Position numbers and translations under genes: made by a program | The notes under the pieces: generated by a model | Seen by the model: the letters and a program-made list of their open reading frames with translations, nothing else | The model's database searches: none | What the model was told of the DNA's origin: nothing | Source of the DNA: Providencia huaxiensis | GTDB taxonomy: Bacteria; Pseudomonadota; Gammaproteobacteria; Enterobacterales; Enterobacteriaceae | Assembly (NCBI RefSeq): GCF_002843235.3 | Contig: NZ_CP031123.2 | Location: 3,348,001 to 3,412,000 of the forward strand | Direction of reading: 5' to 3' | DNA length: 64,000 nucleotides | Part shown: in pieces, positions 7,486 to 24,567 of the stretch | Layout: each line of letters opens with the position of its first letter | Position numbering within the stretch: position 1 is the first letter of the stretch

Positions 7486-9342
7486 ATGAATCTGCAATTC
7501 GCTAATTTCAAAAAAAACACATTGCTCTTACTCAGCACAGCCGTATTGACTTTAATTCCTATTACAGCAAATGCAACATGCCCTACAGGGCAAGAACAAT
7601 ATGACCGTTTAGATTTCATAGGTAAAGATGACACCGTTGTTTCAGTGGATCATAGGGGAGATATGAATGGCAAAGTTCCCGAAAATAGTCTGCTAGCGTT
7701 CCAAGGTTCATACAAGAAATGCAGGCACGCGATAGAAACGGATGTCAGACTTTCTAGTGACGGGGCTCTAATGGTTTTTCATGATGCTAATATTGGTCGT
7801 GTATTGGAAATGGATTACAACCCTGAAACAAATAGCGGCCCGAATCCCCCTATATCAAGTCTTACTCAACGTGAAATTCAATCAAAACAAATGCATTCTG
7901 TTAACTGGGATGCGACGAATCAATATGTACCAACGGTTGAAGAAGTTATCACAGATTACATAGCAAACAATGGTCAATCTCTTTTTTATTTTGATATTAA
8001 AGATGAAAAAGCAATTATTATGGTTGCGAAAGCGATTTCTGAAGAAGCTAAAACACATCCTGATGTTCTAAAGCGATTTATTGTCAAATTTGGTATGGAG
8101 CATGTGCCAACTTATGAAAAGTGGCAAGAACTGCTTATAAAGGAAGGCGCGAACTCCGCCGTTATGGCAAACCCTTATATTAGTCCCTGGGGAGCGGAAA
8201 AAATCAATAAAATGGATATACCTAACCCTCCAGGTGAACAATATGAGGACAATACCAGTCGAGCGGTTGCTTCTTGGGCTCGGCAACCCGCTAAATTGGT
8301 GCCAAATGTTGAGGTTGTGATTAAAAACTCAGATGATTTTATTACAACTACGAAGCGTCTTTCAGATCAAGGTATGTATGAAAAGCCAACTAGCTTAGAA
8401 AGTGATAACACTTTTAAAGGCTCAATGGCTCGAATGATCTCAATTATTAAAAGCAAACAAAAAGCACTAGGGTTATTTGTGCCCAATCCAGATTTCATTC
8501 AATGGAAAAGAGACAAAGTTACTCAAGGAGTAACCATTAAGAGCACTACGGATGGTCGGCAGTTAAATATTGAAAGTGCCTATATTCTTAATACTGGTAA
8601 CTGTTGTTACACAATGGAAGAGCGATTAGGTCCTAACGAACAAAAAGATATCCGCATGAACCTAGCATGGGCCAGAAGTATTGGTGCAAATGTAATTACG
8701 GTTGATGACCCTGACTCCGTTGATACTTATTACAAAATGCAAGGCGAGTTGGATAAAGTCGCGATTCCAGTTACTGTAAAACCGTCAAAAGAGATGAACT
8801 CCGTCCTTTCTCGTCAACTTAATTTGCTAGACAATTTTCCAAAAGAAAACAGCATATTTATCAAGCCCTGGTTAGGTGAAGCAGCATGGGGCTGGGGAGG
8901 TGTAGTCTGTCTTTGGGATAACTTTGATGGCGATCATTATGCTTGGACCTATCGGTGCGATTATTCCAATGCGACAGCTGATGGTTATCATAAAGTATTT
9001 CATACAAAAGTGATTGAAAAGCATAAGTATTCTTCAGAAGCAGGCGCTGCTATTCAAATTTTTAATGAAAACTCAGAATACTGCCTAACCGTAGATAGAG
9101 ATGCAAGAAGGCGACTGCTGTGGGAAAAAGGCTGTAAAACCGCGGAAGAGCAATCTCTATTTATTTTCGATAGAAACCATTTAATTCCTATTCAGTATTA
9201 TCACTCAGAAACTGGGCGACAAATGGTTAGAAATATGAACGAAGGCATGTATGGGACTGATATGTATGGCTCTTTGGCAACTGGTAATTATGTAGAAGAT
9301 GACACATGGGGACTGTGGGGGATATATAACAGTAGTAATTGA
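7486..9342 (+). CDS. exported glycerophosphodiester phosphodiesterase family protein with long C-terminal extension
   Basis: The 618-residue protein opens with a signal peptide (residues 1-30, cut likely after ANA), so it acts outside the cytoplasm. The GDPD catalytic pattern is intact: H56-R57, PEN at 65-67, E84 and D86, and H99-D100. These enzymes cleave phosphodiesters of glycerol-type head groups; some relatives (sphingomyelinase D type) release cyclic phosphates. Typical GDPD enzymes have about 250-360 residues. This one has an expanded catalytic region plus a Trp- and Tyr-rich tail (about 450-618) that I cannot assign; a carbohydrate-binding fold is possible. It stands alone between a CRP-like site and a 15-bp terminator. 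The substrate is unknown; the nearby gal genes suggest a sugar phosphodiester. Confidence 0.8.
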   Translation: MNLQFANFKKNTLLLLSTAVLTLIPITANATCPTGQEQYDRLDFIGKDDTVVSVDHRGDMNGKVPENSLLAFQGSYKKCRHAIETDVRLSSDGALMVFHDANIGRVLEMDYNPETNSGPNPPISSLTQREIQSKQMHSVNWDATNQYVPTVEEVITDYIANNGQSLFYFDIKDEKAIIMVAKAISEEAKTHPDVLKRFIVKFGMEHVPTYEKWQELLIKEGANSAVMANPYISPWGAEKINKMDIPNPPGEQYEDNTSRAVASWARQPAKLVPNVEVVIKNSDDFITTTKRLSDQGMYEKPTSLESDNTFKGSMARMISIIKSKQKALGLFVPNPDFIQWKRDKVTQGVTIKSTTDGRQLNIESAYILNTGNCCYTMEERLGPNEQKDIRMNLAWARSIGANVITVDDPDSVDTYYKMQGELDKVAIPVTVKPSKEMNSVLSRQLNLLDNFPKENSIFIKPWLGEAAWGWGGVVCLWDNFDGDHYAWTYRCDYSNATADGYHKVFHTKVIEKHKYSSEAGAAIQIFNENSEYCLTVDRDARRRLLWEKGCKTAEEQSLFIFDRNHLIPIQYYHSETGRQMVRNMNEGMYGTDMYGSLATGNYVEDDTWGLWGIYNSSN

Positions 9343-9345
9343 TAG

Positions 9346-9382
9346 TAATATTAGGCCAGATAATTTGTCTGGCCTAATATTA
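9346..9382. terminator. bidirectional terminator between the GDPD gene and the mgtC reading frame
   Basis: A perfect 15-bp inverted repeat (TAATATTAGGCCAGA, 7-base loop, TCTGGCCTAATATTA) lies between convergent genes. Its right end contains the stop codon of the minus-strand mgtC frame. Confidence 0.85.
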
Positions 9383-10068
9383 ATGCTCTAAAGTCACCGC
9401 CTGCACATGTGGGAGCTGTTTGAGTGCTATGTAAAACTCAGTTAACGTCATTTTTTGCCTGACATTCACTCTCAAGTTAACTTCAACACGCTCCTTTTTT
9501 AAATCCCGAATATTTAGACTGTCTATTATATTTTTGTTCGATTTCAGGTAGTCAATCATTAACTGCAAGCCATCCTCATCATTGAACAACATTCGGATAT
9601 TTAATTTACCAAGTTTTTTGCTCTTTGCTTGATAGAGCAAGACTTGTGGGCTAATCCATATTGCAACAAAAAATAAGACCGTCACTGCGATAGCATGAAT
9701 ATAAAAACCATTTCCTGACGCTATACCAATCCCAGCTGAAGCCCACACAATTGCAGCGGTTGTTAAGCCTGAGATGGCATCATCGCTGCGGTGCATGATG
9801 ACCCCTGCACCTAAAAAGCCAATCCCACTAATAATCTGCGCCGCTAGCCTCATGGGATCGCTACGTATATTGTCGGATATCCCTGCGTAGTATTCGTTAA
9901 CAGGCAGCTAGCAACAGAAATGATAACACATGTGGTAAAACCAACCGGTTTACCTTTTGCTTCCCTTTCTAAACCAAGGAGGCCGCCTAAGACAAAGGCG
10001 ACCATCAACTTGATTAATGTAGGAGGGAAGCTGCTTAACTGCTCATAAATATAGGTTAAGCCTTCCAT
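9380..10068 (-). pseudogene. MgtC/SapB family membrane protein, split by a frameshift
   Basis: Two overlapping frames together make one MgtC-family protein of about 229 residues. The first (10068-9850) carries the start and the first membrane helices, with LGGLLGLERE. The second (9853-9380) carries RLAAQIISGIGFLGAG, further helices and the cytosolic C-terminal domain. In the second frame, upstream of its ATG, one can read ISDNIRSDPMRLAAQ, the expected link. A single-base loss around 9885-9900 therefore explains the break. There is no slippery heptamer. MgtC proteins act in the inner membrane in magnesium or acid adaptation. It lies 21 bp behind the transporter gene, so it is the third gene of that operon. 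Alternatives are a sequencing error, or two coupled polypeptides (the stop and the next ATG overlap as ATGA). Confidence 0.75.
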
Positions 10069-10089
10069 TTACCTCTCTCCTCACTCCAT

Positions 10090-11340
10090 TTATTTCTCAA
10101 CAACAGCATCCACATTGTGATTATCTTGCTGCGTTGTTTTCTTTTTTGAAACATCATCTTTAAAGAAAATAAGGAAGAAGACTAATACAACGGCTGCAAC
10201 TACTGTTGGGTAGTGCCAATAGGTAACCCATTGAGGCAGTGACGCGGCTCCTGTCTCTGTGACTGTATTGTTGAAAATATAACCACAGACAGTTGAAGCA
10301 AATAATAAGCCTGCACCATTAGAGACGATAAAGCGGATCCCTTGAGCCTGAGCTCGGATTTCTGGGCGCGCCTTTTTATCAACATAGATGTCGCCTGCAG
10401 TAAAGAAAAAGTCCCAACACAAACCTTGCAGTAACAGGCCGATGATAATGAACATCGTGCCAGTATCCATTGCTGCATAAGAGAAAAGGATTGTTCGGAT
10501 AATCCAAGAGCCAATACCTAATGCTAATGTAATTTTAAACCCGAATTTTAACAGCACGAATGACAGCACAAACATGAAGACGATTTCACAGGCCACGCCA
10601 ATCTGCATCATAGATGCTGCGTTATCGAACCCAAGCGCCTTAATGAATACCGGAATATAAGCGGAATAAGCTGTTTTTGGGATCATGAGCACAAAGATGC
10701 TAAACATGAGAATTGCGAAATAGCGGTCTTTAAATAAAGAAAGTGCGTCAAGACATAGAATATCCCTAGGCTTAAATGGTTGGTCTTTTGCTTTCGGAGG
10801 CGTGTCCGGCAGTGTTAAACAGTATAGAGCTAGCACAACACCTGCACCCGCAGCAATATACCAAGTCATGGTACTACCAGAGAAGCCCATTTCACCCATG
10901 ATGAATCCCACAACCATGAAACCGAAATTTCCAAACACTCGGATAACCGGGAACATTTTCACGCCGTTAATGTGCGAGAAAGTAATACTATTGGAGAGTG
11001 CTGTGGTAGGGTAAAACAGCAAACCGACGATAAAGATCAGTAACAAGGTCATTCCAACATTCTGTGTTTCCACAAATTGAGGCACCGTTAGCAACACACC
11101 TGCATTGATAATGTGAAGTACAGCCATAACCTTTTGTGATGAAAAGAATCTATCCGCAATCATTCCGATGAAGAGTGGTGACATGATAGTCGCCAGTCCC
11201 AGTAAAGCATAAGCATTACCAATGATGTTAGCCATTCCATAAGAACTCAATACCAGTCCCATCGTCATATTCCATGCGCCTTGCATGAAATATTGGACAA
11301 ACATCATAATCAACAGCCTGGAAGTTATATTCACGCTCAT
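10090..11340 (-). CDS. MFS transporter of the nucleoside:H+ symporter (NupG/XapB/YegT) family
   Basis: This inner-membrane protein has about 416 residues and 12 predicted helices, and resembles NupG, XapB and YegT (N-terminal FVQYFMQGAWNM, then the LFYPTTALSNSI block). Family members import nucleosides or related compounds with protons. ATG 11340 is preceded by AAGGAGATC, so the longer reading from 11385 is rejected. It begins 10 bases after the MBL-fold hydrolase gene and is followed by the mgtC frame, forming one operon. Neighbours involved in phosphodiesters and galactose suggest it imports a sugar or sugar-phosphate-related product rather than a common nucleoside; this is inference. Confidence 0.82.
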   Translation of the reverse strand: MSVNITSRLLIMMFVQYFMQGAWNMTMGLVLSSYGMANIIGNAYALLGLATIMSPLFIGMIADRFFSSQKVMAVLHIINAGVLLTVPQFVETQNVGMTLLLIFIVGLLFYPTTALSNSITFSHINGVKMFPVIRVFGNFGFMVVGFIMGEMGFSGSTMTWYIAAGAGVVLALYCLTLPDTPPKAKDQPFKPRDILCLDALSLFKDRYFAILMFSIFVLMIPKTAYSAYIPVFIKALGFDNAASMMQIGVACEIVFMFVLSFVLLKFGFKITLALGIGSWIIRTILFSYAAMDTGTMFIIIGLLLQGLCWDFFFTAGDIYVDKKARPEIRAQAQGIRFIVSNGAGLLFASTVCGYIFNNTVTETGAASLPQWVTYWHYPTVVAAVVLVFFLIFFKDDVSKKKTTQQDNHNVDAVVEK

Positions 11341-11350
11341 AGTGATCTCC

Positions 11351-12172
11351 TTAGTTTGCTTCAACCGTGAGGCCGTCAGAAGCAACTAAAATGTTATGTT
11401 CAGCGCAAATACTTTCCAGATTTTCATGTAATAAACGCGCGCTGTGTGAGATATGGGAAACCAATGTTTTTGTCTTCGAGTGTATACAGCCTTGATCTTC
11501 CAGCTTCTGTTTGGCTGCAAACACGGTTTCCAAACTCATGTGATTGTCCGTTCTATCATCACCATTCAAGCCATAGGTACATTCTAAAACAACGATATCC
11601 AACGGCTTATCGACAAGCCAGTTCCAAGTCAATTCAGGGAACCAACCGGAGTCATGTCCATAAAAAATACTCTTTCCACCTTTCTCTACATGATACACAA
11701 AACAATATTCCCACTTTGCATGATTAGCCAGCAAGGGGGTGATTTTATAGCCATTATGCTCAACGGTTTCATAGGGAACCATACAATGAAAGCCGAAGCG
11801 CTCTTTGCTGTAACCAGGTAAAACACTGATAGAGCCATTAATTGCTCTGTCGTTACCAAAAATGTGCAAAGGGTGACATATTTCGTAGCCATAACCTTCC
11901 ATACGGCTATATAAATCGCCAACATTAAAGTGGTCAGGGTGAGTATGCGTAAAAAGAAGCGTTTCAATATCAGTCGCATCACGACCATCTCGCAATAACT
12001 GATGACTGAACGTCGGAGACATATCTACTAGCATAACATCATCAATGATAGCGGATGACTGGGTTCGAATATCTTTTCCGCCTAGCCGGCGTGCCTCTAA
12101 ACAATGTTCACATCGACAAAATGGATTTGGGATACCTTCGGAAGCAGCTGTACCTAAAAAATGGATTTTCAT
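11351..12172 (-). CDS. MBL-fold metallohydrolase, PhnP-like
   Basis: The 273-residue cytosolic protein has the metallo-beta-lactamase metal motif HTHPDH (about 76-81), a further H in NHAKW, D in GHDSG, and a late H in SHISH. The N-terminal GTAASEGIPNPFCRCEHC resembles PhnP, the cyclic phosphodiesterase that opens 5-phosphoribosyl 1,2-cyclic phosphate in phosphonate breakdown. No C-P lyase genes are present, so another cyclic phosphate or phosphodiester is likely. ATG 12172 has AAGGA seven bases upstream. It is the first gene of the operon with the transporter and mgtC, divergent from the chimeric regulator and preceded by a LacI-type operator. Confidence 0.8.
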   Translation of the reverse strand: MKIHFLGTAASEGIPNPFCRCEHCLEARRLGGKDIRTQSSAIIDDVMLVDMSPTFSHQLLRDGRDATDIETLLFTHTHPDHFNVGDLYSRMEGYGYEICHPLHIFGNDRAINGSISVLPGYSKERFGFHCMVPYETVEHNGYKITPLLANHAKWEYCFVYHVEKGGKSIFYGHDSGWFPELTWNWLVDKPLDIVVLECTYGLNGDDRTDNHMSLETVFAAKQKLEDQGCIHSKTKTLVSHISHSARLLHENLESICAEHNILVASDGLTVEAN

Positions 12173-12213
12173 AGTGAATTCCTTTTATTTGTAATTATCA
12201 TGCTTATCTGCAT

Positions 12214-12227
12214 TTGATACGTATCAA
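12214..12227. promoter_or_regulatory. LacI-type operator, perfect palindrome
   Basis: TTGATACGTATCAA is a perfect 14-bp palindrome with the central CG typical of LacI-family operators. It is 42 bases upstream of the MBL-fold gene start. Confidence 0.7.
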
Positions 12228-12270
12228 TATATATAATTTAAGATAATCACAAAGCTTTTATAGTGAATTA

Positions 12271-12286
12271 AGTGATCATGTTCAAA
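12271..12286. promoter_or_regulatory. candidate CRP binding site
   Basis: AGTGA-TCATGT-TCAAA matches 8 of 10 conserved CRP bases with correct 6-base spacing, between the two operators. Confidence 0.4.
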
Positions 12287-12391
12287 GTAAAATTCACTAA
12301 TACCAAAAATATCAATGCAATAAGTCAAAGTTAATTAGATGTAAAAGAATTGAATTCATTATGTTCTTAGTCATACAATAAGTCCTATATG

Positions 12392-12405
12392 ATGATACGA
12401 ATCAA
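12392..12405. promoter_or_regulatory. LacI-type operator
   Basis: ATGATACGAATCAA differs from the perfect site at 12214 in two of 14 positions. It lies 70 bases upstream of the regulator gene, consistent with autoregulation. Confidence 0.6.
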
Positions 12406-12474
12406 TTTCATTTATCTTTATATAACCTCAAATTAAGGTATTATTATTGACAGTCAATTTGGAGGGGATAATCA

Positions 12475-14655
12475 ATGGCAACGATGAGGGATATTTGTAG
12501 GATTGCTGGTGTTTCGCACGGCACAGTCTCTAATGTGTTAAATGGGCGTGGTAACGTCAGCGTAGAGAAAATGGAAGCTGTGTTAAATGCAGCCAAAGAA
12601 CTGGGCTATAGCGTTAACACACAAGCTCAATTACTCAGAGCAAATACAAATATTAAGATTGCTATTGTACTCCCCCACCTAACATCAGAAAAATACACTG
12701 TACTATTCAACTCTATTCGCCAAACGATCGAAGAGTGTTCAGATTTGCCATTTGATATCTTCCTGACTGATGACCTCAAATCTAAAGAATTGAAAGTGCT
12801 GCAAAAAATCGCCTCCGGTGGATATAAAAGTGTTATCTCTGTTAGTTGTCTTGATGATGCTGCTATTTATTTTGATACGCTTCAAATTGCCCCTGAAAAT
12901 GTGACTTTTGTCTATCGAAAACCCCAAAATGCTAAAATCCATTTTGGCCTTGACTACGTTCAGGCAGCTGAAGCCATCGCAAATCAGATAGCAAAAAACT
13001 CATATAAAAGAATTGGAGTTTTTGCCGAGGCCTCACATCATTTGAATAGTGAGGAGTTTGTGCGGGAAGTACGGCTATCATTACAAAAATACGTGCCGAA
13101 TATCGAAATTGTTGTGTGCTACTCAAGCGACCTCGAATCCTACAATACCGCATTTGATTTTTTCGCAAATAACCAAAAGTTAGATGCAATCATTACGCAA
13201 GATCTCGAAAGAACTCGATATATCACTCAGGCTAGTTATTTCGGAAGCTCGAGAGCTGCGCCCCGTATTTTTTCATTAACTGGCAGCACACCGCCAATGG
13301 TTAATGGAATATATTGCTCCCCGATTAATTACGCCCAATTAGGTCAAGATGTTGCTATTCGCTTATTTCAAAATGAGGGGCAAAAGCTAGAACAGGAACC
13401 GCAAATCTCCAACCCTTGTAGCCGTGTTTACACCAGTGAGGTTAGAGATGGTGAACGTCTTCGAATTGATACGCTTAATTTACTAACGATCCCCAGTCCT
13501 TCAACCGACGCATTACAAAAGCTGCTTCCTAACTTTTTCGCCCAAACAGGAGTCCACGTTAATATCTCTGTTCGCCCCTTTGGTGAGATATTCAACATCC
13601 TTAATACGATAGAAGAGCATGCTTTTTACGATTTATTACGCGTTGATGTCGCTTTCTTTCCTTGGTTTGCAGAAAAGACACTCGTTCCACTTAGTGCGAT
13701 AGGTAATGGATTAACAGACTTGCAATCAAAGTACACAGAACAAAAGCAAAACCGATTCTGTTTGGTTAATGGCACAGCCTATGCAATGCCGTTGGATGCA
13801 AGTGTACAACTTATGTTTTACAGAAAAGACCTATTCGAAGACCCAATTACAAAACGCATGTACTTTGAATCGACAGGCAAAGAGCTGAAAGTTCCTTCTA
13901 CTTTTGAAGAATACGACAAAATAAGCCATTTTTTCTATACTCATCGAGAAGCAGGCAACGAGAATAAACCTTATGGCTCCTCTTCGACAACAGGCAGTGC
14001 TGGAATAATCTCATCAGAGTACCTGCTACGCTATTATGCCGCAGGTGGACGCTTGTTTGACACCAGTACAGAACCAAGTTTAAGCCCTTTGATTGCTGAG
14101 AAAGTGCTTACTGACTACATGAACCAACTCTCCTACACAGACCGGATTAACAGTGAGTGGTGGGGAGAATCGATAAAACGGTTTGAGTCAGGAGGCCTTG
14201 CGATGAATATCGCGTATATGAATTTATTTAATGATGTAGCTCATAGCCCCATGTCCAATAACATTGGATTCGCCCCAGTGCCTGGAGGAAAGCCTCAAAT
14301 TGGCGGTGGGGTTTTAGGTATGTCACGTTGTAGTAAAAAGACAGAATTAGTCGAGCATTTTTACCGCTGGCTATACTCTGACGTCATTCAGGATCATATA
14401 CTGATGCTTGGTGGGAATACTATTCAGCGTAATTATATTTACATGCAAGAGGTTAGGCAGCGTTATCCTTGGCTTTCGCTTTCATATAATGAAATTAGGA
14501 CGGGAGTCCGTGAATCCACAATGCCTAATGGAGAAGCATTTAATCTTCGTCAGGCTGAAAATATCATTGGCCGTGGGGTCATTGATGCTTTAGATGGGTT
14601 AATGACCATTCAGGAAACCATTCAGAAGATAAATCTAGGGTTAAAAAATCTTTAA
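12475..14655 (+). CDS. chimeric regulator: LacI-type DNA-binding and sensor domains fused to a solute-binding-protein domain
   Basis: The 726-residue protein is about twice the length of a LacI regulator. Residues 1-50 form a LacI helix-turn-helix (TMRDICRIAGVSHGTVSNVL). About 58-325 is a periplasmic-binding-protein-like sensor domain (IKIAIVLPHL, RIGVFAEA, DAIITQD). From about 330 to the end it resembles an ABC transporter sugar-binding protein of SBP family 1, with AYAMPLDASVQLMFYRKDLF, a GGRLFD segment and GFAPVPGG. There is no signal peptide, so the binding domain stays in the cytoplasm. The start is ATG after GGAGG. It is divergent from the MBL-transporter operon and probably regulates that operon, itself, galET and the phosphodiester glycosidase through the recurring operators. 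The ligand is unknown. Confidence 0.85.
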   Translation: MATMRDICRIAGVSHGTVSNVLNGRGNVSVEKMEAVLNAAKELGYSVNTQAQLLRANTNIKIAIVLPHLTSEKYTVLFNSIRQTIEECSDLPFDIFLTDDLKSKELKVLQKIASGGYKSVISVSCLDDAAIYFDTLQIAPENVTFVYRKPQNAKIHFGLDYVQAAEAIANQIAKNSYKRIGVFAEASHHLNSEEFVREVRLSLQKYVPNIEIVVCYSSDLESYNTAFDFFANNQKLDAIITQDLERTRYITQASYFGSSRAAPRIFSLTGSTPPMVNGIYCSPINYAQLGQDVAIRLFQNEGQKLEQEPQISNPCSRVYTSEVRDGERLRIDTLNLLTIPSPSTDALQKLLPNFFAQTGVHVNISVRPFGEIFNILNTIEEHAFYDLLRVDVAFFPWFAEKTLVPLSAIGNGLTDLQSKYTEQKQNRFCLVNGTAYAMPLDASVQLMFYRKDLFEDPITKRMYFESTGKELKVPSTFEEYDKISHFFYTHREAGNENKPYGSSSTTGSAGIISSEYLLRYYAAGGRLFDTSTEPSLSPLIAEKVLTDYMNQLSYTDRINSEWWGESIKRFESGGLAMNIAYMNLFNDVAHSPMSNNIGFAPVPGGKPQIGGGVLGMSRCSKKTELVEHFYRWLYSDVIQDHILMLGGNTIQRNYIYMQEVRQRYPWLSLSYNEIRTGVRESTMPNGEAFNLRQAENIIGRGVIDALDGLMTIQETIQKINLGLKNL

Positions 14656-14661
14656 AAATAC

Positions 14662-14700
14662 AGGCCACAGCCTCTCGAGGCCGTGGTCTTGTTTAATTTT
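14662..14700. terminator. terminator between the regulator gene and galT
   Basis: A GC-rich inverted repeat (CCACAGCCTC with GAGGCCGTGG, one mismatch) is followed by a T-rich run at 14689-14700. It lies between convergent genes and may work in both directions. Confidence 0.7.
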
Positions 14701-15742
14701 TATAATGTATATCACTAACGGCTCTTAGTTTCTCTGCAGCCTGTTCTGGAGTCAAATCTCGTTGCGTTTCAGCCAACATTTCATAGCCTACCATAAATTT
14801 TCGTACTGAAGATGAACGTAGTAATGGCGGATAAAATTGGGCGTGTAACTGCCAATGGTTAATGCTCTGGCCATCCTTGAAGAAAGGTGCAAAGTGCCAT
14901 CCCATCGAGTAAGGGAAAGATGTTTTGAACAGGTTGTCATAGCGTGAAGTGAGCTTTTTTAATGCAAGTGCGAGGTCACCCTGCATCTCTTCCGTTAATT
15001 CATTCATGCGATGAACAATTGATTTTGGCATCAATATTGTTTCAAATGGCCAAGCCGCCCAATATGGAACCACCGCAATCCAATGCTCCGTTTCTACCAC
15101 CGTGCGTTTTCCGTCACTCATTTCAAAAGCAGCGTAGTCCAAAAGGAGATTGGAGCCATTTTCCTTATAGTAACGCTGTAGGTTTTCATCTTTTCGCTTT
15201 ATTTCGTTAGGAAGAAAATCAGAGGCCCAAATCTGCCCGTGAGGGTGAGGTTGTGAGCACCCCATCATTTCACCTTTGTTTTCAAACGCTTGAACCCACA
15301 AATACTCCTCCCCAAGTTCAGAAAGCTGTTCGTTCCATGTTTTCACGACGTCTTTAATTTGTGAAACACTCAGTTCTGGCAATGTTTTACTGTGATCTGG
15401 AGAAAAGCATATCACTCGACTAAGACCTCGCACAGCTTGAGTGCGGAGCAAACGAGTTATATTTTCAGGCTGTGCAGAACCTTGCGGTGTTAAGGCAGAA
15501 AAGTCATTTTGGAAAACAAAAGTTCCTTTGTAGTCTGGGTTTATCTCACCTGAGACTCTTTTATTTGTTGGGCATAAAAAACACTTTTCATCATATTCAG
15601 GCTGTTTTGTTGCCTCAGGAGCCTCATCCATGCCATTCCACGGTCTTTTAGCTCGGTGAGGTGACACAAGCACCCACTGGTCAGTTAGCGGGTTATACCG
15701 GCGATGTGGCACCTCTGTTGGGTCGAATTTGGGTAAACTCAT
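14693..15742 (-). CDS. galT: galactose-1-phosphate uridylyltransferase
   Basis: GalT exchanges UMP between UDP-glucose and galactose 1-phosphate, giving UDP-galactose and glucose 1-phosphate (Leloir pathway, cytosol). The protein has 349 residues, the usual length. The HPHGQIW motif holds the uridylylated nucleophile H168. C54 and C57 are the first zinc ligands, and the C-terminal block [18 protein letters not shown] is conserved. I chose ATG 15742 (MSLPKFDP) because TGAGGT lies just upstream; the alternative ATG at 15754 would itself overlap that ribosome binding site. It follows galE directly. No galK or galM follows, which is unusual for a gal operon. Confidence 0.97.
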
Positions 15743-15750
15743 GTTGGACC

Positions 15751-16791
15751 TCATTTATTAATATTTGAATCGTTGTAGCCTTCCGGGTTATTGCTTTGCC
15801 AACGCCAAGCATCATCAGCCATATCCTGAATGTTTCGTGTTGCCTTCCAGTGGAGTTCACGTTGGGCTTTCTCCGGTGTTGACCAATACTCTGCAATATC
15901 ACCTTGACGACGGGCTTTAAATTCGTGAGCAATGGGCTTGCCACAAGCAACCTCAAATGCATGAAGCATTTCTAAAACACTGGTACCTTTGCCCGTTCCC
16001 AAATTATAAACATGTAGCCCAGGCTGCTTGCTCACCACATCCAGTGCTGCAACATGTCCATCCGCCAGATCCATAACGTGGATATAATCCCGAACGCCAG
16101 TACCATCAATCGTGGGGTAGTCATCACCAAAAATTGAAAGGATAGGACGCTTACCAACAGCGACTTGAGTAATATAAGGGGTAAGATTATTGGGGATCCC
16201 TGACGGGTCTTCCCCCATCTCGCCAGACGAGTGTGCCCCGACGGGGTTAAAATAACGTAACAGGGTTATTGACCACTCAGGCGCTGAACTCTGCAAGTCC
16301 GTTAAAATACGTTCAACCATGTGCTTGCTCGTTCCGTAAGGGCTGGTCGTTGCCCCCGTACTGAAGGTTTCGTCTATAGGTACAGTGTCAGGCTCACCGT
16401 AAACAGTGGCAGACGAACTGAAAATGATGCTGTGAATGCCATGTTCTTGCATTACTTTAAGCAATACAAGCGTGCCATTGACGTTTACATCATAGTAACT
16501 AAGTGGCTTTTCAACAGACTCGCCCACTGCCTTTAAACCTGCAAAATGAATAACAGATTGAATATTATGTGCTTTAAAGATACAGCGAAGCATACTTGCT
16601 TCTCTTATATCCCCTTCGAAAAATACAGGACGGACACCTGTCAGTTTTTCAATTCGGTTTAACACTTCTATATTCGAATTTATTAGATTATCGAGTATCA
16701 CAGGGATATAACCCGCTTTAATGAGTTCGACACAAGTATGACTTCCGATATAGCCCATTCCCCCTGAGACTAAAATTTCTACTTTTTCCAT
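15751..16791 (-). CDS. galE: UDP-glucose 4-epimerase
   Basis: GalE interconverts UDP-galactose and UDP-glucose with bound NAD. It has 346 residues (E. coli 338). The Rossmann motif GGMGYIG is at 10-16, and the catalytic S127, Y152 and K156 (YxxxK) are in place. It is the first gene of a two-gene galE-galT operon. A LacI-type near-palindrome lies 37 bases upstream of the start and a possible CRP site a little further out. The operon is divergent from the exported phosphodiester glycosidase, which suggests a shared inducer. Confidence 0.97.
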
Positions 16792-16827
16792 ATTGACCTC
16801 GCTGAATCGATTTTATCAATCATACGA

Positions 16828-16841
16828 TTTGAACGTATCAA
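16828..16841. promoter_or_regulatory. LacI-type operator, one good half-site
   Basis: TTTGAACGTATCAA has a perfect right half (GTATCAA) and a partly matching left half, compared with TTGATACGTATCAA. Confidence 0.45.
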
Positions 16842-17000
16842 TTCCATGTGTTGGTGTTAAAAATTGAACAGAGATCACAATACATATCCAAAATTAATTT
16901 TAATTACGAATTGCCAATAGGGTTCTTTGATTGTTTTTACATGGCAGGCTTTAACTTAATTATTGCAGTCGCTGTTATGTTTATTTTTGCTTTTCTAAAG

Positions 17001-17014
17001 TTATACGTTCCAAT
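17001..17014. promoter_or_regulatory. LacI-type operator, imperfect
   Basis: GTTATACGTTCCAA matches 10 of 14 positions of the perfect site at 12214, with the central ACGT kept. Confidence 0.4.
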
Positions 17015-17175
17015 TCCGAGGTGCTGAAATTGCTCTCTTGTGTTTTGCATCTACACTTTCTATTAGCGAACGGAACTATTTGATATTTTAAGTTTTATAA
17101 TAATATCAACCACAGTAATCACTAAAAAAACAAACGGACTTGACCATCCAAATTATGAACCTTAAGGCGTCCAAC

Positions 17176-18744
17176 ATGGCAAACATAGTTAAGTTAATGA
17201 AGTCATTATTTTATATGACATTAATGCTCTTTATTTATGGATTACCAGTGCATGCAAATGAGATGAAGGAAACAGAATCATGGGTAAGCTGGGGGGAGCA
17301 ATCCATCAGTCTGGGTAGCCCTCCAATTTATAGCTTTAAAGCCAAAAGTGATGTAAAAGTGAGAAATAACGAAAGGCCTCTATTGGTAGACGTCTATCTA
17401 CATAATATGAAATACCAAGGGCCCAATTACGACCAGACACGAGTCCGAGTAACCGCATCAGCTAAACACGTGATTTCTGGAAAATTGATGCGACAAGAAT
17501 CAAATGAAGTATTTGGAAAAATCAAAGAATTTAAAACTCGATTTGAGTTCCCTGCTATCCGCTCAGGGGATTACGAAATCGAAATTGAAATGATAAAAAT
17601 TGAATACCTCGATGATAACTATCCTGTCTGGTCCTTCGTAATTAAAGGAGCTGATAGCCGAAAAGGAACTTCATTCATAGCAGGACAAGCTGCCTATGAA
17701 GCTAATCGAATTCATTTAGCGGCATCAGATGTACAAAAGACTAAAAAGGCAGGTCAATACGTTTTCGGTCAAAGAAAAGATCATACAGATTATTATGAGG
17801 TTCCTGTCATTCTCGGGTCGGACAGTTATACAGTTAGACTGACCGGTAGCCTTCTGATGATCCCTAAACTCATTGATAGAGTTCGCTATGTATACCCGCA
17901 TCTGCTAGGAGATATGCATAAGGGTAAGTCTGAGCGCTGTGAATACAACGCTTACGCTACCGTAGATTATCAGCATCAAAACGCTGAAATCTATACGCCG
18001 TATGAAGCCTGGCAAGAACTTGATGGCCCTTTAGTGGCACTAAATGCCAATTTCTTTGATATCCGCAAGCAAGCTGCGCAAACCAACTGGAAGATGAATC
18101 GGTGTTCATCTCCAATGGGTATGTATTATGACAATGTAACAAAAGGGCCAACTCAAGGTACTCATAATTCTCCAAATAAATATCTCGCGGGCTTGCCTTA
18201 TTTTATAAACCCTAACAACTATAAATCTATCAAACTCGATACAATGCTTTGGCTCGATGATGTTTATTCACATCGCATGCTGATCCATGCAGACTCACTG
18301 GAAGCAAAAAATGTCGAACAACAGATGAAAGAGTTAGACCGTGATGGATTCAAATATATTGCTGTTTCCGGTGTGGGGATTAACGACCGAATAGAGGATC
18401 CTTCTATTACCCCATCATATGCAGAAAGAGGGTTGGGTAGAGTGGCGATGAGTTTTAATGAAGATGAAAATCTGATTTATATCTATCAAGGAGGAGACGT
18501 AGATGATGGCCTAGACCGTCGTGAGCTATATGGCCTGTTCAAAGCATTACATGTAGATAATGCAATTGAGTTCTCTGGTGGCCCATACGCTGCTATCGCA
18601 ATCAAAGATGATAGTTTCACTGTTTATGGTGGAATAAGAACAAAATCTTCTTGTCCTGATAACCGTGTATGGTGTTCAGCACCTACAAACGAAAATGGGA
18701 AACCTGGCGCAACACCTGCATGGTTAGGCATTTCAAACCGTTAA
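17176..18744 (+). CDS. exported phosphodiester glycosidase (NAGPA-domain) family protein
   Basis: NAGPA-type enzymes remove a sugar from a sugar-1-phosphodiester; the animal member uncovers mannose 6-phosphate. The C-terminal half (about residues 240-520) has the family landmarks: ALNANFFD, a CSSPMG block, GLGRVAMSF, and IEFSGGPYAA where many members read LDGGGS. The N-terminal part (about 30-230) is a beta-rich region I do not recognise. A hydrophobic signal segment at the N-terminus (cut near HANE) implies export. I chose ATG 17176 because AAGG sits eight bases upstream; ATG 17155 and TTG 17140 are alternatives that would lengthen the signal. The DGGGS-type motif is degenerate, so activity needs testing. 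It is divergent from galE-galT, suggesting a galactose-containing substrate. Confidence 0.75.
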   Translation: MANIVKLMKSLFYMTLMLFIYGLPVHANEMKETESWVSWGEQSISLGSPPIYSFKAKSDVKVRNNERPLLVDVYLHNMKYQGPNYDQTRVRVTASAKHVISGKLMRQESNEVFGKIKEFKTRFEFPAIRSGDYEIEIEMIKIEYLDDNYPVWSFVIKGADSRKGTSFIAGQAAYEANRIHLAASDVQKTKKAGQYVFGQRKDHTDYYEVPVILGSDSYTVRLTGSLLMIPKLIDRVRYVYPHLLGDMHKGKSERCEYNAYATVDYQHQNAEIYTPYEAWQELDGPLVALNANFFDIRKQAAQTNWKMNRCSSPMGMYYDNVTKGPTQGTHNSPNKYLAGLPYFINPNNYKSIKLDTMLWLDDVYSHRMLIHADSLEAKNVEQQMKELDRDGFKYIAVSGVGINDRIEDPSITPSYAERGLGRVAMSFNEDENLIYIYQGGDVDDGLDRRELYGLFKALHVDNAIEFSGGPYAAIAIKDDSFTVYGGIRTKSSCPDNRVWCSAPTNENGKPGATPAWLGISNR

Positions 18745-20646: not shown

Positions 20647-21456
20647 TTATGGACGTTCACCTTTTGCCAAACGCTCATTGATACAATCAATAACTGATGG
20701 TAAATCAGCCAAAGTATCAATCACATAATGAGCACCAGCGGCATACAATTTCTCTGCAGCTTGCTGTTTCAATAAATTCACCGCATCAATCGACATCCCT
20801 TGATATTCTTCCCATGTTTTACCGAATTCATTACCCGAAACCGATAGCCCGATGCTCCACATCCCAGCATTGCGCCCTTCCTCAATACCAGGAACAGCAT
20901 CATCCACTTTGATACAAGCAGAGACGGACCCCACGCCTAACTCAATGACATTCTGTAAAGCCATCCAAGGCCCCGGACGCCCACCAGCAAGTAGGTCATC
21001 ACTCGCGACCCAGTAGTCGGGTTGGTAACCCAACGCCTTTGCTGCAGGAACTAATTTTTCCATCACGGCACGGGGGTAACCTGAACAAGAGCCAATCTTA
21101 ATATTTTGGCTGCGTAATGTATTGATTGTGTCGACAACGCCAGCGATTGGTGCTGCAAAATCGACAACATTAGCAATTTGCAATGGCATAAAGGCCGCAT
21201 AGATTTTATCAATGTCCTCACTGTTCATTGAACGACCAAATTTTGCTGTCCACAACGTATCAACTTCTGGTAATTTTCCTAATGCTTCAATATGTTGCCA
21301 TTTACCCAGCCCCATAGGAATGCGCGCTTGAGCCAGTGTGATATCCATATCAAACACCCCTTTAAACGCTTCAATAAAAATTTGAGTGGGTGCAAAAGAA
21401 CCAAAATCTACAGTGGTTCCCGCCCAATCAAGAATAACGGCTTCAATACGGTTCAT
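20647..21456 (-). CDS. phnX: phosphonoacetaldehyde hydrolase (phosphonatase)
   Basis: PhnX cleaves phosphonoacetaldehyde to acetaldehyde and phosphate, the last step of 2-aminoethylphosphonate breakdown. It is a HAD-superfamily enzyme of 269 residues. The nucleophile D10 lies in [10 protein letters not shown] and the Schiff-base lysine K52 in GLGKWQHI; the acidic motif is [12 protein letters not shown]. It lies 9 bases behind phnW, so the two form an operon. It acts in the cytosol on the product of PhnW. Confidence 0.97.
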
Positions 21457-21465
21457 TTCTTTTCC

Positions 21466-22569
21466 TTATATTTCCCAGTAAATGGCTTTTTCTATTGCTA
21501 CCAGCAATGCATCAATGTCTTTTTCATAAACTTCACCAATGTTTCCAATACGAAAACAGTCGCTTTGCGAGACCTTGCCCGGATAAATGACAAAGCCTTG
21601 TGATTTTAAATTTTGATAAAATTGCTTAAATTGGTAATCAGGCGAATTTGGTGAGTAAAATGCGGTGATAATCGGCGAATGGAGGCTATCTTCTAACAGT
21701 GTGGTAAAACCTAATTTACGCATACCAGACACCAACTTGTATTGATTCCCCTGATAGCGTTGAAAGCGAGCTGCCACCCCGCCTTCTTGAGCTAACTCCT
21801 TGAGCGCTTGGGCAAACGCTAATACGGTATGAGTTGGAGAAGTAAATCGCCATTTACCTTGAAAATCTTCCATACAACGCCACTGCGCATATAAATCTAG
21901 CGATAATGAACGAGAGCGCCCCTTACAACGTTCAAGCGCTTCGGTACGGGCGATAACAAAAGCAAACCCCGGAACCCCTTGAATACATTTATTTGCTGAA
22001 CTAATTAAAAAATCAATGTTAAGCTCAGCAATATCCATGGGGACCCCGCCAAAACTACTCATTGCATCCACGATATAGCGTTTTTGATATTGCTTCGCTA
22101 ATTTCGCGACTTTTTCTATCGGGTTTAAAATCCCTGTCGTGGTTTCACAGTGCACCATCGCAATATGCGTGATCGGGTTATCCTGTTGTAATATCTGCTC
22201 AATCTGCTGTAGATCAGGCAGAGACACTTCACCACAATCATAAATACAATGGGAAATTCCTAAACCTTGAACCATTTCTGCCATTCGAGCACCATAGGCG
22301 CCATTACTGATAATTAAGATTTTTTCTTTAGGGCCAATTGCACTGCCTAGAACAGCTTCAACCGCATAACTCCCACTTCCCTGCAGTAACACCGACGAAT
22401 ACCCTTTTTTGTCGGTTGCCAGTGCGACTAACTGTTGGCGGATGTTTTGGACAACACCTAAATTGTAATCATCATCCCATGTACAGCTATCAAACAGCAT
22501 GGCTTCCTTCACCGTTTTAGACGTCGTAAGCGGCCCCGGTGTTAATAGCAAATAATTGTTGTTTGTCAT
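21466..22569 (-). CDS. phnW: 2-aminoethylphosphonate--pyruvate transaminase
   Basis: PhnW moves the amino group of 2-aminoethylphosphonate to pyruvate, giving phosphonoacetaldehyde and alanine. It is a class V PLP aminotransferase of 367 residues; PLP lysine K194 lies in [12 protein letters not shown] and LLTPGPL opens the protein. It is the first gene of phnW-phnX. A minus-strand TATAAT (22601-22606) and a GntR-type operator (22581-22594) lie directly upstream, so PhnR bound there would block transcription. Confidence 0.97.
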
Positions 22570-22580
22570 TCAATTCACCT

Positions 22581-22594
22581 TTGGTCTATACCAG
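22581..22594. promoter_or_regulatory. PhnR-type operator upstream of phnW
   Basis: TTGGTCTATACCAG matches 12 of 14 bases of the perfect palindrome before phnS. It fits the HutC-subfamily GntR pattern GTNTANAC and lies between the phnW promoter and start codon. Confidence 0.75.
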
Positions 22595-22707
22595 ATTGCT
22601 ATTATAATGATCGTAGCCCGCCCAAAAGGTCAAAGGAAAAGTGCGTGTGAAACAAAAAATTCATATAACTATGTATAATATGGCGGAAACAATAATAGGA
22701 AATAACC

Positions 22708-23427
22708 ATGAAATTATCCGCGGATGAAACCCCACAATACCTGCTTATCAAAGCCCAATTACAGGAAAGGATTCAAAATGGCGAGCTAAAATGTGGTGAT
22801 AAACTCCCTTCAGAACGCGAACTTTGTGCTATTTTCAATACCACACGCATCACTATTCGCGAAAGTTTGGCACAGTTAGAGTCCAGTGGGGCAATTTACC
22901 GCTCTGAGCGCCGCGGTTGGTTTGTCACACCTGAGCGTCTTTGGTTGGATCCAACCCAAAATACCAATTTCCATAAACTTTGCCTCGAACAAGGTCGCCA
23001 ACCAAAAACAGTTTTATTGGATGGAAAAGTTATTACCGTTCCTCTCGAGGCTATGGATCCGTTAAAACTTCAATCATTTGAACAAATTTATTTACTCACC
23101 CGCCTACGTTTTGCTGATGACAGGCCCGTTTGTTACTGTGAAAACCATTGCTTACCTGCTCGCGTTCCCGAGCTATTGCGCCATGACCTCAATGGCAGCC
23201 TGACGGAGGTATACCAAACTCATTTCAATTTAATTTATACCAGTATGCATTTGTCTTTCTACCCAACGGCAATGCCGGCTCAAGCTGCGCAAGCACTGGG
23301 CGTTACGGTTGGTCGTCCAGCCCTATTGTTGCAGCGTTTAAACTATGACCAACATGGGCGAATTTTAGATTATGATGTTGAATATTGGCGCCATGATAGT
23401 TTGCGCATCGAAGTCGATACTTTGTAA
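22708..23427 (+). CDS. phnR: GntR-family (HutC/UTRA) phosphonate regulator PhnR
   Basis: The 239-residue cytosolic regulator has an N-terminal winged helix (about 8-75, with [20 protein letters not shown]) and a C-terminal UTRA effector domain. It sits between phnWX and phnSTUV, as in the Salmonella phn locus. Two operators of the GTNTANAC type flank it, before phnW and before phnS, but none lies directly before its own start. A TATAAT at 22674-22679 is its likely -10. The probable inducer is 2-aminoethylphosphonate or phosphonoacetaldehyde, by analogy. Confidence 0.92.
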
Positions 23428-23478
23428 GCATTTTTGCTTATAAAAATAATTTTAGCTATTTAGCTGTATTTCATCTTT

Positions 23479-23506
23479 TTGTCATATAAACCCGTTAGCG
23501 TAAAAA
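23479..23506 (+). promoter_or_regulatory. candidate phnSTUV promoter
   Basis: TTGTCA, a 16-base spacer, then TAAAAA. The -35 is good and the -10 poor. The PhnR-type palindrome begins five bases downstream, at the expected transcription start. Confidence 0.5.
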
Positions 23507-23510
23507 GCAT

Positions 23511-23524
23511 CTGGTATATACCAG
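23511..23524. promoter_or_regulatory. PhnR-type operator upstream of phnS
   Basis: CTGGTATATACCAG is a perfect 14-bp palindrome containing GTATATAC, the HutC-subfamily GntR operator core. It is 30 bases upstream of the phnS ATG. Confidence 0.85.
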
Positions 23525-23553
23525 AATTCATTTTACCTTAACAGGAGAAAACC

Positions 23554-24567
23554 ATGAAACGCACCTATTTAGCAGGCCTATTAATGGCAGCCTTTTGCTC
23601 TACCTCTGTTTTTGCCGCTGATGTTGTTACTGTTTACTCCGCTGATGGGCTGCACGATGGCAACAACAGCTGGTATAAAAATCAGTTTGAGGCATTCACC
23701 AAGCAAACAGGTATCAAAGTACAGTATGTTGAAAGTGGTTCAGGGGCGATAGTTGAAAGGCTCTCTAAAGAGCGTACCAATCCACAAGCGGATGTACTCA
23801 TCACTGTTCCGCCATTTATCCAACGTGCAGCAAAAAACCAATTATTAGCTGAATTTATCCCCGAAGCTGCGGCTAATATTCCTAATTCAAACCACTATTA
23901 CACACCGTTGGTCAATAACTACCTGACCTTTATCTATAATGCCAAACTACTTAAATCCCCACCTGAAAACTGGAGCGCCTTACTCGATCCCCGCTTTAAA
24001 AATAAACTGCAATATTCAACCCCGGGACAAGCTGGGGACGGTACCGCAGTAATGCTACAAGTTTTCCACAGTTTTAATGGTAAAGACGCAGGGTTTGATT
24101 ACCTCGGCAAATTGCAGGCTAATAACGTTGGCCCATCAGCTTCCACCGGTAAGCTCACCGCACTTGTCAATAAAGGGGAGCTTTATGTCGCTAATGGCGA
24201 CTTGCAAATGAATTTATCCCAAATGGCACGTAACCCTAATGTCCAAATTTTTTGGCCTAAAGATGCCAATGGAGAGCGTAGTACGCTGGTTTTACCCTAT
24301 GTTATCGGCCTAGTTAACAACGCCCCCGAAACAGAAAATGGTAAAAAACTGATTAATTTCCTTTTGGATAAACCCTCACAAAGCCGTGTCAGTGAGCTTT
24401 CATGGGGCATGCCTGTCCGTTCCGATATCACCCCATCCGATAAACAATATCATACGGCTCTTCAGATGTTAGAAGGCGTGAAAACTTGGCAACCTAATTG
24501 GGATGAAGTTGAAGTTTCCCTATCCGATGATATTTCACGTTGGCAAAAAGTCACTGACGGTGAGTAA
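23554..24567 (+). CDS. phnS: 2-aminoethylphosphonate ABC transporter substrate-binding protein PhnS
   Basis: PhnS is a periplasmic binding protein of 337 residues with a clear signal peptide (1-21, cut near VFA-AD). It belongs to the iron/thiamine/phosphonate-like SBP group ([31 protein letters not shown]). It delivers 2-aminoethylphosphonate to PhnTUV. AGGAG lies seven bases before the ATG, behind the PhnR-type operator. Confidence 0.93.

Follow-up and report, generated by a model that had tools for sequence, protein, structure and literature searches.

A candidate LacI-SBP regulon for a hexose-1-phosphate diester in a genomic island of Providencia huaxiensis

An island at the valS-rraB interval of Providencia huaxiensis was analysed in a 64,000-nucleotide stretch of contig NZ_CP031123.2 (positions 3,348,001 to 3,412,000), which is called the window throughout this paper. 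The island encodes a metallo-β-lactamase (MBL)-fold protein, a major facilitator superfamily (MFS) importer, a regulator in which LacI and solute-binding-protein (SBP) domains are fused, GalE and GalT, and two exported proteins, one with a GDPD fold and one remotely related to NAGPA. The MBL-MFS operon and galE-galT, possibly together with the NAGPA-like gene, probably constitute one LacI-SBP regulon that would import a hexose-1-phosphate diester and open it to galactose 1-phosphate. Gene linkage, a common operator sequence and a duplicated galE-galT pair without galK are seen directly; the substrate, the direction of transport, the reaction and the sensing are what we infer beyond them.

In the proposed mechanism, the NupG-like MFS protein would import the diester, for which galactose 1,2-cyclic phosphate and a galactose 1-phosphodiester are the likeliest candidates. 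The PhnP-like MBL protein would then open the imported compound and leave the phosphate on C1, so that galactose 1-phosphate would form with no kinase involved; from there, GalT and GalE would lead into glucose 1-phosphate and UDP-glucose. The solute-binding domain of the regulator may sense the imported compound in the cytosol. PhnP is reported to open ribosyl 1,2-cyclic phosphates, leaving the 1-phosphate (PMC3463581). If the substrate were a hexose 1-phosphodiester or 1,2-cyclic phosphate, this would explain the presence of GalT without GalK, as well as the phosphoglucomutase and phosphate-transport genes that neighbour related modules.

The conserved module and its candidate operator

The best NCBIfam model for the MBL protein is PhnP (TIGR03307), at 70.8 bits and below the cut-off of 272; five relatives reached 48-92 bits against the same model, and a profile of the family (A1) matched the solved PhnP structure 3g1p with an E-value of 9.4e-17. 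The residues H76, H78, D80, H81, H151, D174, H240, H243, C19, C21 and C24 are invariant across six sequences, and the HxHxDH motif, the further His/Asp ligands and the CxCxxC motif of PhnP-type MBL hydrolases are present when aligned to 3g1p; the His/Asp residues and the cysteine cluster presumably play their usual metal-ligand roles. The MFS protein belongs to Nuc_H_symport (PF03825, E 2.5e-77) and scored 260 bits against NupG (TIGR00889), below the cut-off of 446. The regulator, a single protein of 726 amino acids, combines a LacI helix-turn-helix (HTH) domain (PF00356) with SBP_bac_1/8 domains. The family calls made by the sequence-only reading held for GDPD, MFS, MBL, GalT and GalE, with MBL and MFS well under the PhnP and NupG cut-offs, and for NAGPA only as a remote relationship. 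That reading did not mention mgtC, which is disrupted in the island into two open reading frames (ORFs) lying in different frames and is intact in relatives such as L003 and L006 (237 aa in L006).

A genome-collection scan yielded 76 MBL loci, L085 being counted although no MBL reading frame was found there. Up to 10 kb was searched on either side of each locus, some contigs being shorter, and neighbours were called by BLAST with the window proteins, the intact MgtC from L006, and the phosphoglucomutase and Na/Pi cotransporter from L056. The MFS gene adjoins MBL in 59 of the 76 loci, the regulator lies within 5 kb of it in 48, and mgtC is found on the same strand within 4 kb in 35. Phosphoglucomutase stands directly upstream of MBL in seven loci and the Na/Pi cotransporter within 5 kb in seven, six being common to both. 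The regulator, MBL, MFS and mgtC therefore form a conserved module, and its linkage spans phyla. Neither the exported GDPD nor the NAGPA-like gene was found in any of the 76 loci. The host genome itself contains a second, intact module (L006; G000:C6:308000-327900) with the regulator, an MBL protein 79% identical to that of the island, MFS and mgtC; no gal, GDPD or NAGPA genes occur in the 19.9 kb read around it. The closest named MBL record is from P. heimbachae (86%). Strong MBL matches were obtained in 10 of 24 genomes of the genus and weak matches only in five more. MBL matches also occur in 46 of 5426 E. coli genomes, on plasmids and two chromosomes, and in the two E. coli regions that were read MBL stands together with the regulator, MFS and mgtC. 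In Cetobacterium, a distant MBL gene comes directly after genes for a PhnCDE-type importer and a histidine phosphatase, without MFS. As a side observation, the Succinivibrionaceae-like loci L055, L056, L058, L060, L063 and L069 carry phosphoglucomutase-MBL-MFS and a Na/Pi cotransporter, with no regulator detected and no operator.

A palindrome near ATTGRNACGTNYCAAT repeats in the regulator-MBL intergenic regions; its central CG and the LacI HTH domain are both LacI-type traits. An operator matrix was derived from 10 distinct sites, of which one belongs to the paralogous module L006 and none lies in the window. Its three top positions in the 64-kb window are 16827-16842 (19.2 bits), 12213-12228 (16.4 bits) and 16999-17014 (14.3 bits), and the only exact match of TTGRWACGTWYCAA in the genome is the site upstream of the MBL operon. 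Simulated windows reached at least 14 bits 0.7 times on average, with maxima of 9.4-18.7, so single operator sites are not decisive, but where they lie is. In each of the two intergenic regions of the island, the best score had a chance of at most 0.0005 (reached in 0 and 1 of 2000 simulations; P 0.0005 for the galE region), and P was 0.003 for at least 14.3 bits in the galE-NAGPA intergenic region. Among loci L024-L072, an operator of at least 15 bits was found upstream of MBL in all 34 regulator-bearing loci, lying 690-800 bp upstream, before mgtC, in four Paenibacillus loci; the 15 loci in which no regulator was detected have such a site at MBL only in L040, weaker operator-like sites being present in L025 and L030 (11.7 and 11.5 bits). 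In all 17 regulator-bearing loci outside the matrix, the top site was located 35-110 bp upstream of MBL. No operator was found upstream of the exported GDPD gene (best 8.5 bits, P 0.05). The common regulation of all units that the sequence-only reading would predict is thus seen in part: candidate operators lie at MBL and galE and an operator-like site at the NAGPA-like gene, with none at GDPD. That the intracellular branch is a regulon is well supported by sequence, and the candidate operator should define the regulon of the module.

A CRP-like sequence was also noticed at window position 12268-12289, upstream of the MBL operator, and in homologous regions it is placed similarly; the Paenibacillus loci L042, L043 and L053 have a cre-like sequence. 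The CRP-like site was rejected as a test: 8 of 10 core matches are reached by 28 of 37 intergenic rows (the window and L007 being identical in sequence) and also by about 17% of single shuffles, and the loci are related. Only its position is conserved.

The galE-galT pair and the link to galactose

GalT and GalE both score above their NCBIfam cut-offs. The island pair lacks galK, and galE, galT and galK are found together elsewhere in the genome; the island pair is a second copy. A second galT was also identified in three Pasteurellaceae genomes (G220, G221 and G222; one Aggregatibacter and two Haemophilus parainfluenzae), where it stands fourth in the MBL operon, after mgtC, and galT-galK is located elsewhere (galK recognised by eye). 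Based on a tree of 12 galT sequences, the Pasteurellaceae module galTs group with Pasteurellaceae (support 100/98) and the island galT stands beside Providencia (83/84), which indicates that galT was recruited to the module at least twice. In L062, a galT-galK set lies divergently beside MBL. The second galE-galT pair without galK and the separate recruitment of galT suggest that galactose 1-phosphate arrives without a kinase, once an imported diester or cyclic phosphate has been opened.

Several observations weigh against this proposal. Neutral nucleosides are the substrates for which the MFS family is known, and the mgtC of the island copy is broken. A galT on the same strand near MBL was found in only three of the 76 loci. 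Other Pasteurellaceae genomes with the module, G223 and G224, have a single galT, which in G223 belongs to a galT-galK set divergent beside MBL; the Pasteurellaceae locus L065 carries the module without an adjoining galT, and in the Providencia genome G201 a strong MBL match is accompanied by no galT match anywhere. The sites at galE and the NAGPA-like gene share one divergent intergenic region, so that the gene served by each is not certain. Genome-wide, the operator pattern with at most one mismatch is at background (16 sites against 15 for the control), and further regulon members are therefore not callable; of the 16 sites, three fall in the island (one within the regulator gene) and a further one at the paralogous module.

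The insertion site, the exported proteins and alternative readings

The genes named in the sequence-only reading, together with the flanking valS, GNAT, rraB and argI, were all found where it had placed them (Table 1), and its description of an island between conserved genes was borne out, valS-rraB-argI being an insertion hotspot. Comparison with 20 of the 23 other genomes of the genus (all but G198, G212 and G090) revealed a valS-rraB gap of 728-843 bp in 12 and other cargo in eight, small (1.8-2.2 kb) in three and about 10-11 kb in five; the present island occurred at this site in none of the 20. Because the interval is variable among the genomes of the genus, the island is a hotspot insertion, and its position by itself is no proof of a pathway. 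The valS-argI cargo in L153-L172, read from ORF starts, is RND/heavy-metal ATPase-like, fimbria-like or small. Compositional foreignness was uninformative, since the GC content of the island (0.37-0.46) resembles that of its flanks (0.41-0.46). Just past the island, at window position 20647-24567, phnX/phnW/phnR/phnS-like phosphonate genes were recognised by reading.

Table 1. Genes and candidate operator sites of the island (window positions).
Feature	Position	Strand	Remarks
Exported AvrBs2-like GDPD-fold protein	7486..9342	+	signal peptide by eye, GDPD barrel ~45-425, beta-trefoil ~448-616
mgtC pseudogene, two out-of-frame ORFs	9380..10068	-	N-terminal part 9850-10068, C-terminal part 9380-9853
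NupG/YegT-like MFS importer	10090..11385	-	PF03825 E 2.5e-77; likely start near 11340
PhnP-like MBL-fold phosphodiesterase	11351..12172	-	TIGR03307 70.8 bits; solved PhnP 3g1p via profile
Putative operator before MBL operon	12213..12228	.	16.4 bits, matrix built outside window
Regulator, fusion of LacI HTH, LacI-type sensor and solute-binding-protein domain	12475..14655	+	
galT, second copy, no galK adjoining	14693..15754	-	NF008724 587 bits
galE, 4-base overlap with galT	15751..16791	-	NF007956 546 bits
Putative operator 35 bp upstream of galE	16827..16842	.	19.2 bits, top match of whole window
Third-best operator-like site, before NAGPA-like gene	16999..17014	.	14.3 bits
Exported remote NAGPA-family protein, degenerate DGGGS motif	17140..18744	+	likely ATG start 17176

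The exported GDPD (PF03009, E 2.7e-17) consists of a signal peptide read by eye, the barrel and a C-terminal, lectin-like beta-trefoil domain. AvrBs2 was the best model for this protein and its five exported relatives (30-49 bits, partial), in contrast to four ordinary GDPDs, all of which were best matched by other GDPD models. The window protein itself gave a partial match of 41.3 bits to NF041304, below the equivalog cut-off of 1000; by model scores, the family appears nearer to AvrBs2 than to ordinary GDPD models. DxR (388-390) and CCY (373-375), ahead of D407, are invariant in the six sequences, with a spacing unlike the published R544/D547 numbers of AvrBs2. The AvrBs2 family makes a galactose phosphodiester from UDP-galactose (PMC12807533). 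A synthase-type role may be at least as plausible for the exported GDPD as the cutting role proposed earlier. Relatives adjoin an importer and a GDPD in all three other loci, the uptake sets being an ABC importer, a cytosolic GDPD and ROK (G216/G082 type) or an exported GDPD and UhpT (G269). The exported GDPD was found in two of the 24 genus genomes, the other one, G216, lacking an MBL match, and G082 has it and the MBL module on different contigs. Five further genomes gave short GDPD matches only (at most 24.1 bits), which were not counted as relatives. A profile search of 394 genomes drawn order-wide found G000, G269 and G429, of which G429 was dropped as an AvrBs2-like case on the grounds that an ordinary GDPD model fits it best; a plasmid search gave one partial match, in an Arthrobacter record. 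Source-named homologues of the two exported proteins are from Providencia.

Pfam searches with the window NAGPA-like protein gave no match up to E 10, PF09992 included, but its relative in G218, which is 39% identical, is above the cut-off of PF09992 with 36.5 bits. The family profile matched the solved chain 6u11 ('EGF-like domain-containing protein'; E 0.0044), which a canonical NAGPA protein also matched, beside chains named NAGPA. Where solved relatives and the homologue from G218 have the DGGGS motif, the window protein has FSGGP, and it may be inactive or altered. Homologues begin at the likely ATG start. The gene occurs in two of the 24 genus genomes, and the other one, G218, has no MBL match; two Proteus mirabilis records carry a 39%-identical homologue and MBL about 2 Mb apart. 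A structure model (mean predicted local distance difference test score 48) was not used. Two neighbourhoods were noted beside these findings. In G218 (L123:5833-10741), the homologue lies in a row with a PI-PLC-X protein and a canonical NAGPA protein. In G082 (L124:7689-10095), three neighbouring genes, whose products all appear exported by eye, encode a calcineurin-like phosphoesterase, an enterotoxin-A-like protein (Pfam) and a protein of 164 aa like the NAGPA-like N-terminal part.

It is quite possible, though short of probable, that part of the island was stacked together by chance in the hotspot, the GDPD and the NAGPA-like protein being secreted host-interaction cargo without relation to the catabolic regulon, the only true unit, an explanation compatible with the intracellular branch proposed above. 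The varied cargo of the valS-argI hotspot favours it, as do the separate occurrence of the two genes without MBL in other genomes of the genus, the lack of an operator at GDPD and, in G082, the protein like the N-terminal part alone beside the enterotoxin-A-like ORF. It is opposed by the operator-like site before the NAGPA-like gene, by the importer and GDPD that adjoin AvrBs2-like relatives in the other loci, and by GDPD and NAGPA homologues that appear to share contigs in two other strains, as judged from identical lengths of the longest contig (720716 and 169757). More tentatively, the whole island could serve to make a compound outside, import it and eat it: the exported AvrBs2-like, lectin-tailed enzyme would act on another cell's UDP-galactose and convert it to a galactose (cyclic) phosphodiester, to be followed by MFS import, PhnP-like opening and GalE/GalT. 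If this were true, such feeding systems would be general and modular and not confined to plant pathogens, since at least two further uptake sets accompany members of the exported family.

A substrate that is nucleoside-like or otherwise not a hexose, such as a nucleoside cyclic phosphate, with galE-galT only supplying UDP-sugars, is unlikely. It would suit the MFS family and G201, which has MBL and no galT, as well as L009 of Cetobacterium, where 7-9 kb separate MBL from a nucleoside phosphorylase and a phosphate-AMP phosphotransferase; PhnP, too, acts on a ribosyl cyclic phosphate (PMC3463581). The best candidate operator of the regulator in the window is nevertheless at galE, galT was recruited independently, and phosphoglucomutase neighbours are present; neighbouring genes in general were read by eye in part of the loci. 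Least probable of all is hydrolysis of external galactosyl phosphodiesters by the exported GDPD and NAGPA-like proteins with import and processing of the product, for which their common export (by eye) within the island, the operator-like site and the related setting of G269, where an AvrBs2-like protein, an exported ordinary GDPD and UhpT make outside cutting plausible, are outweighed by the AvrBs2-type model scores, the absence of a GDPD operator, the lost DGGGS motif and the absence of both genes from the 76 MBL loci.

In the joint pathway of the sequence-only reading, the extracellular cutting step is accordingly not supported. What survives is import, MBL opening to galactose 1-phosphate, and GalT/GalE, favoured by the MBL-MFS-regulator linkage, the operators at MBL and galE, galE-galT without galK and the recruitment of galT. 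The co-occurrence of the six families, which that reading named as a check, was not found as a common cluster in the relatives searched; co-occurrence without linkage exists in G082 (GDPD and MBL) and in the two Proteus mirabilis records (NAGPA-like and MBL).

Comparison with known systems

A widespread MBL/MFS/LacI-SBP module without a name, which E. coli plasmids also carry, would gain a likely function through the LacI-SBP regulon proposed here; among the papers listed in literature searches, none appeared from its title or abstract to deal with this module. In 2025, the paper on xanthosan reported AvrBs2-like proteins in Providencia stuartii and other bacteria and suggested that host-made sugar phosphodiesters may feed many bacteria (PMC12807533); the accessible part of its main text makes no mention of MFS, a metallo-enzyme or GalT (PMC12807533). 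The present locus is a concrete, testable version of sugar-phosphodiester feeding outside Xanthomonas.

The AvrBs2-XanT-XanP xanthosan system of Xanthomonas resembles the island in having an AvrBs2-type GDE-fold protein beside an importer and a phosphodiesterase, with galactose 1-phosphate as the end product (PMC12807533). Its own features are a type III effector, a TonB-dependent outer-membrane transporter, a 2H-phosphoesterase and a ROK regulator (PMC12807533), whereas the island has a signal peptide (by eye) and beta-trefoil, a NupG-like MFS protein, a PhnP-like MBL protein, dedicated galE-galT and a LacI-SBP regulator, and there is no sign of common control of its AvrBs2-like gene. Family scans of the eight island proteins gave no TonB-dependent or 2H matches, the NAGPA-like protein being without any match. 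The agrocinopine acc system of Agrobacterium likewise has dedicated import and hydrolysis of a sugar phosphodiester under its own regulator, and differs in its AccA binding protein with an ABC importer, AccF and pyranose-2-phosphate recognition (PMC4526662); the G216/G082 relatives, with an ABC importer and a cytosolic GDPD, appear more acc-like than the island. The island MBL protein shares the family match, the metal-ligand motifs and the cysteine cluster with PhnP (PMC3463581). Unlike PhnP, it scores far below the PhnP cut-off, and its regulator-bearing relatives are grouped with an MFS importer. The gal (Leloir) operon combines galK with galE-galT, in contrast to the island, in which galE-galT stands without galK.

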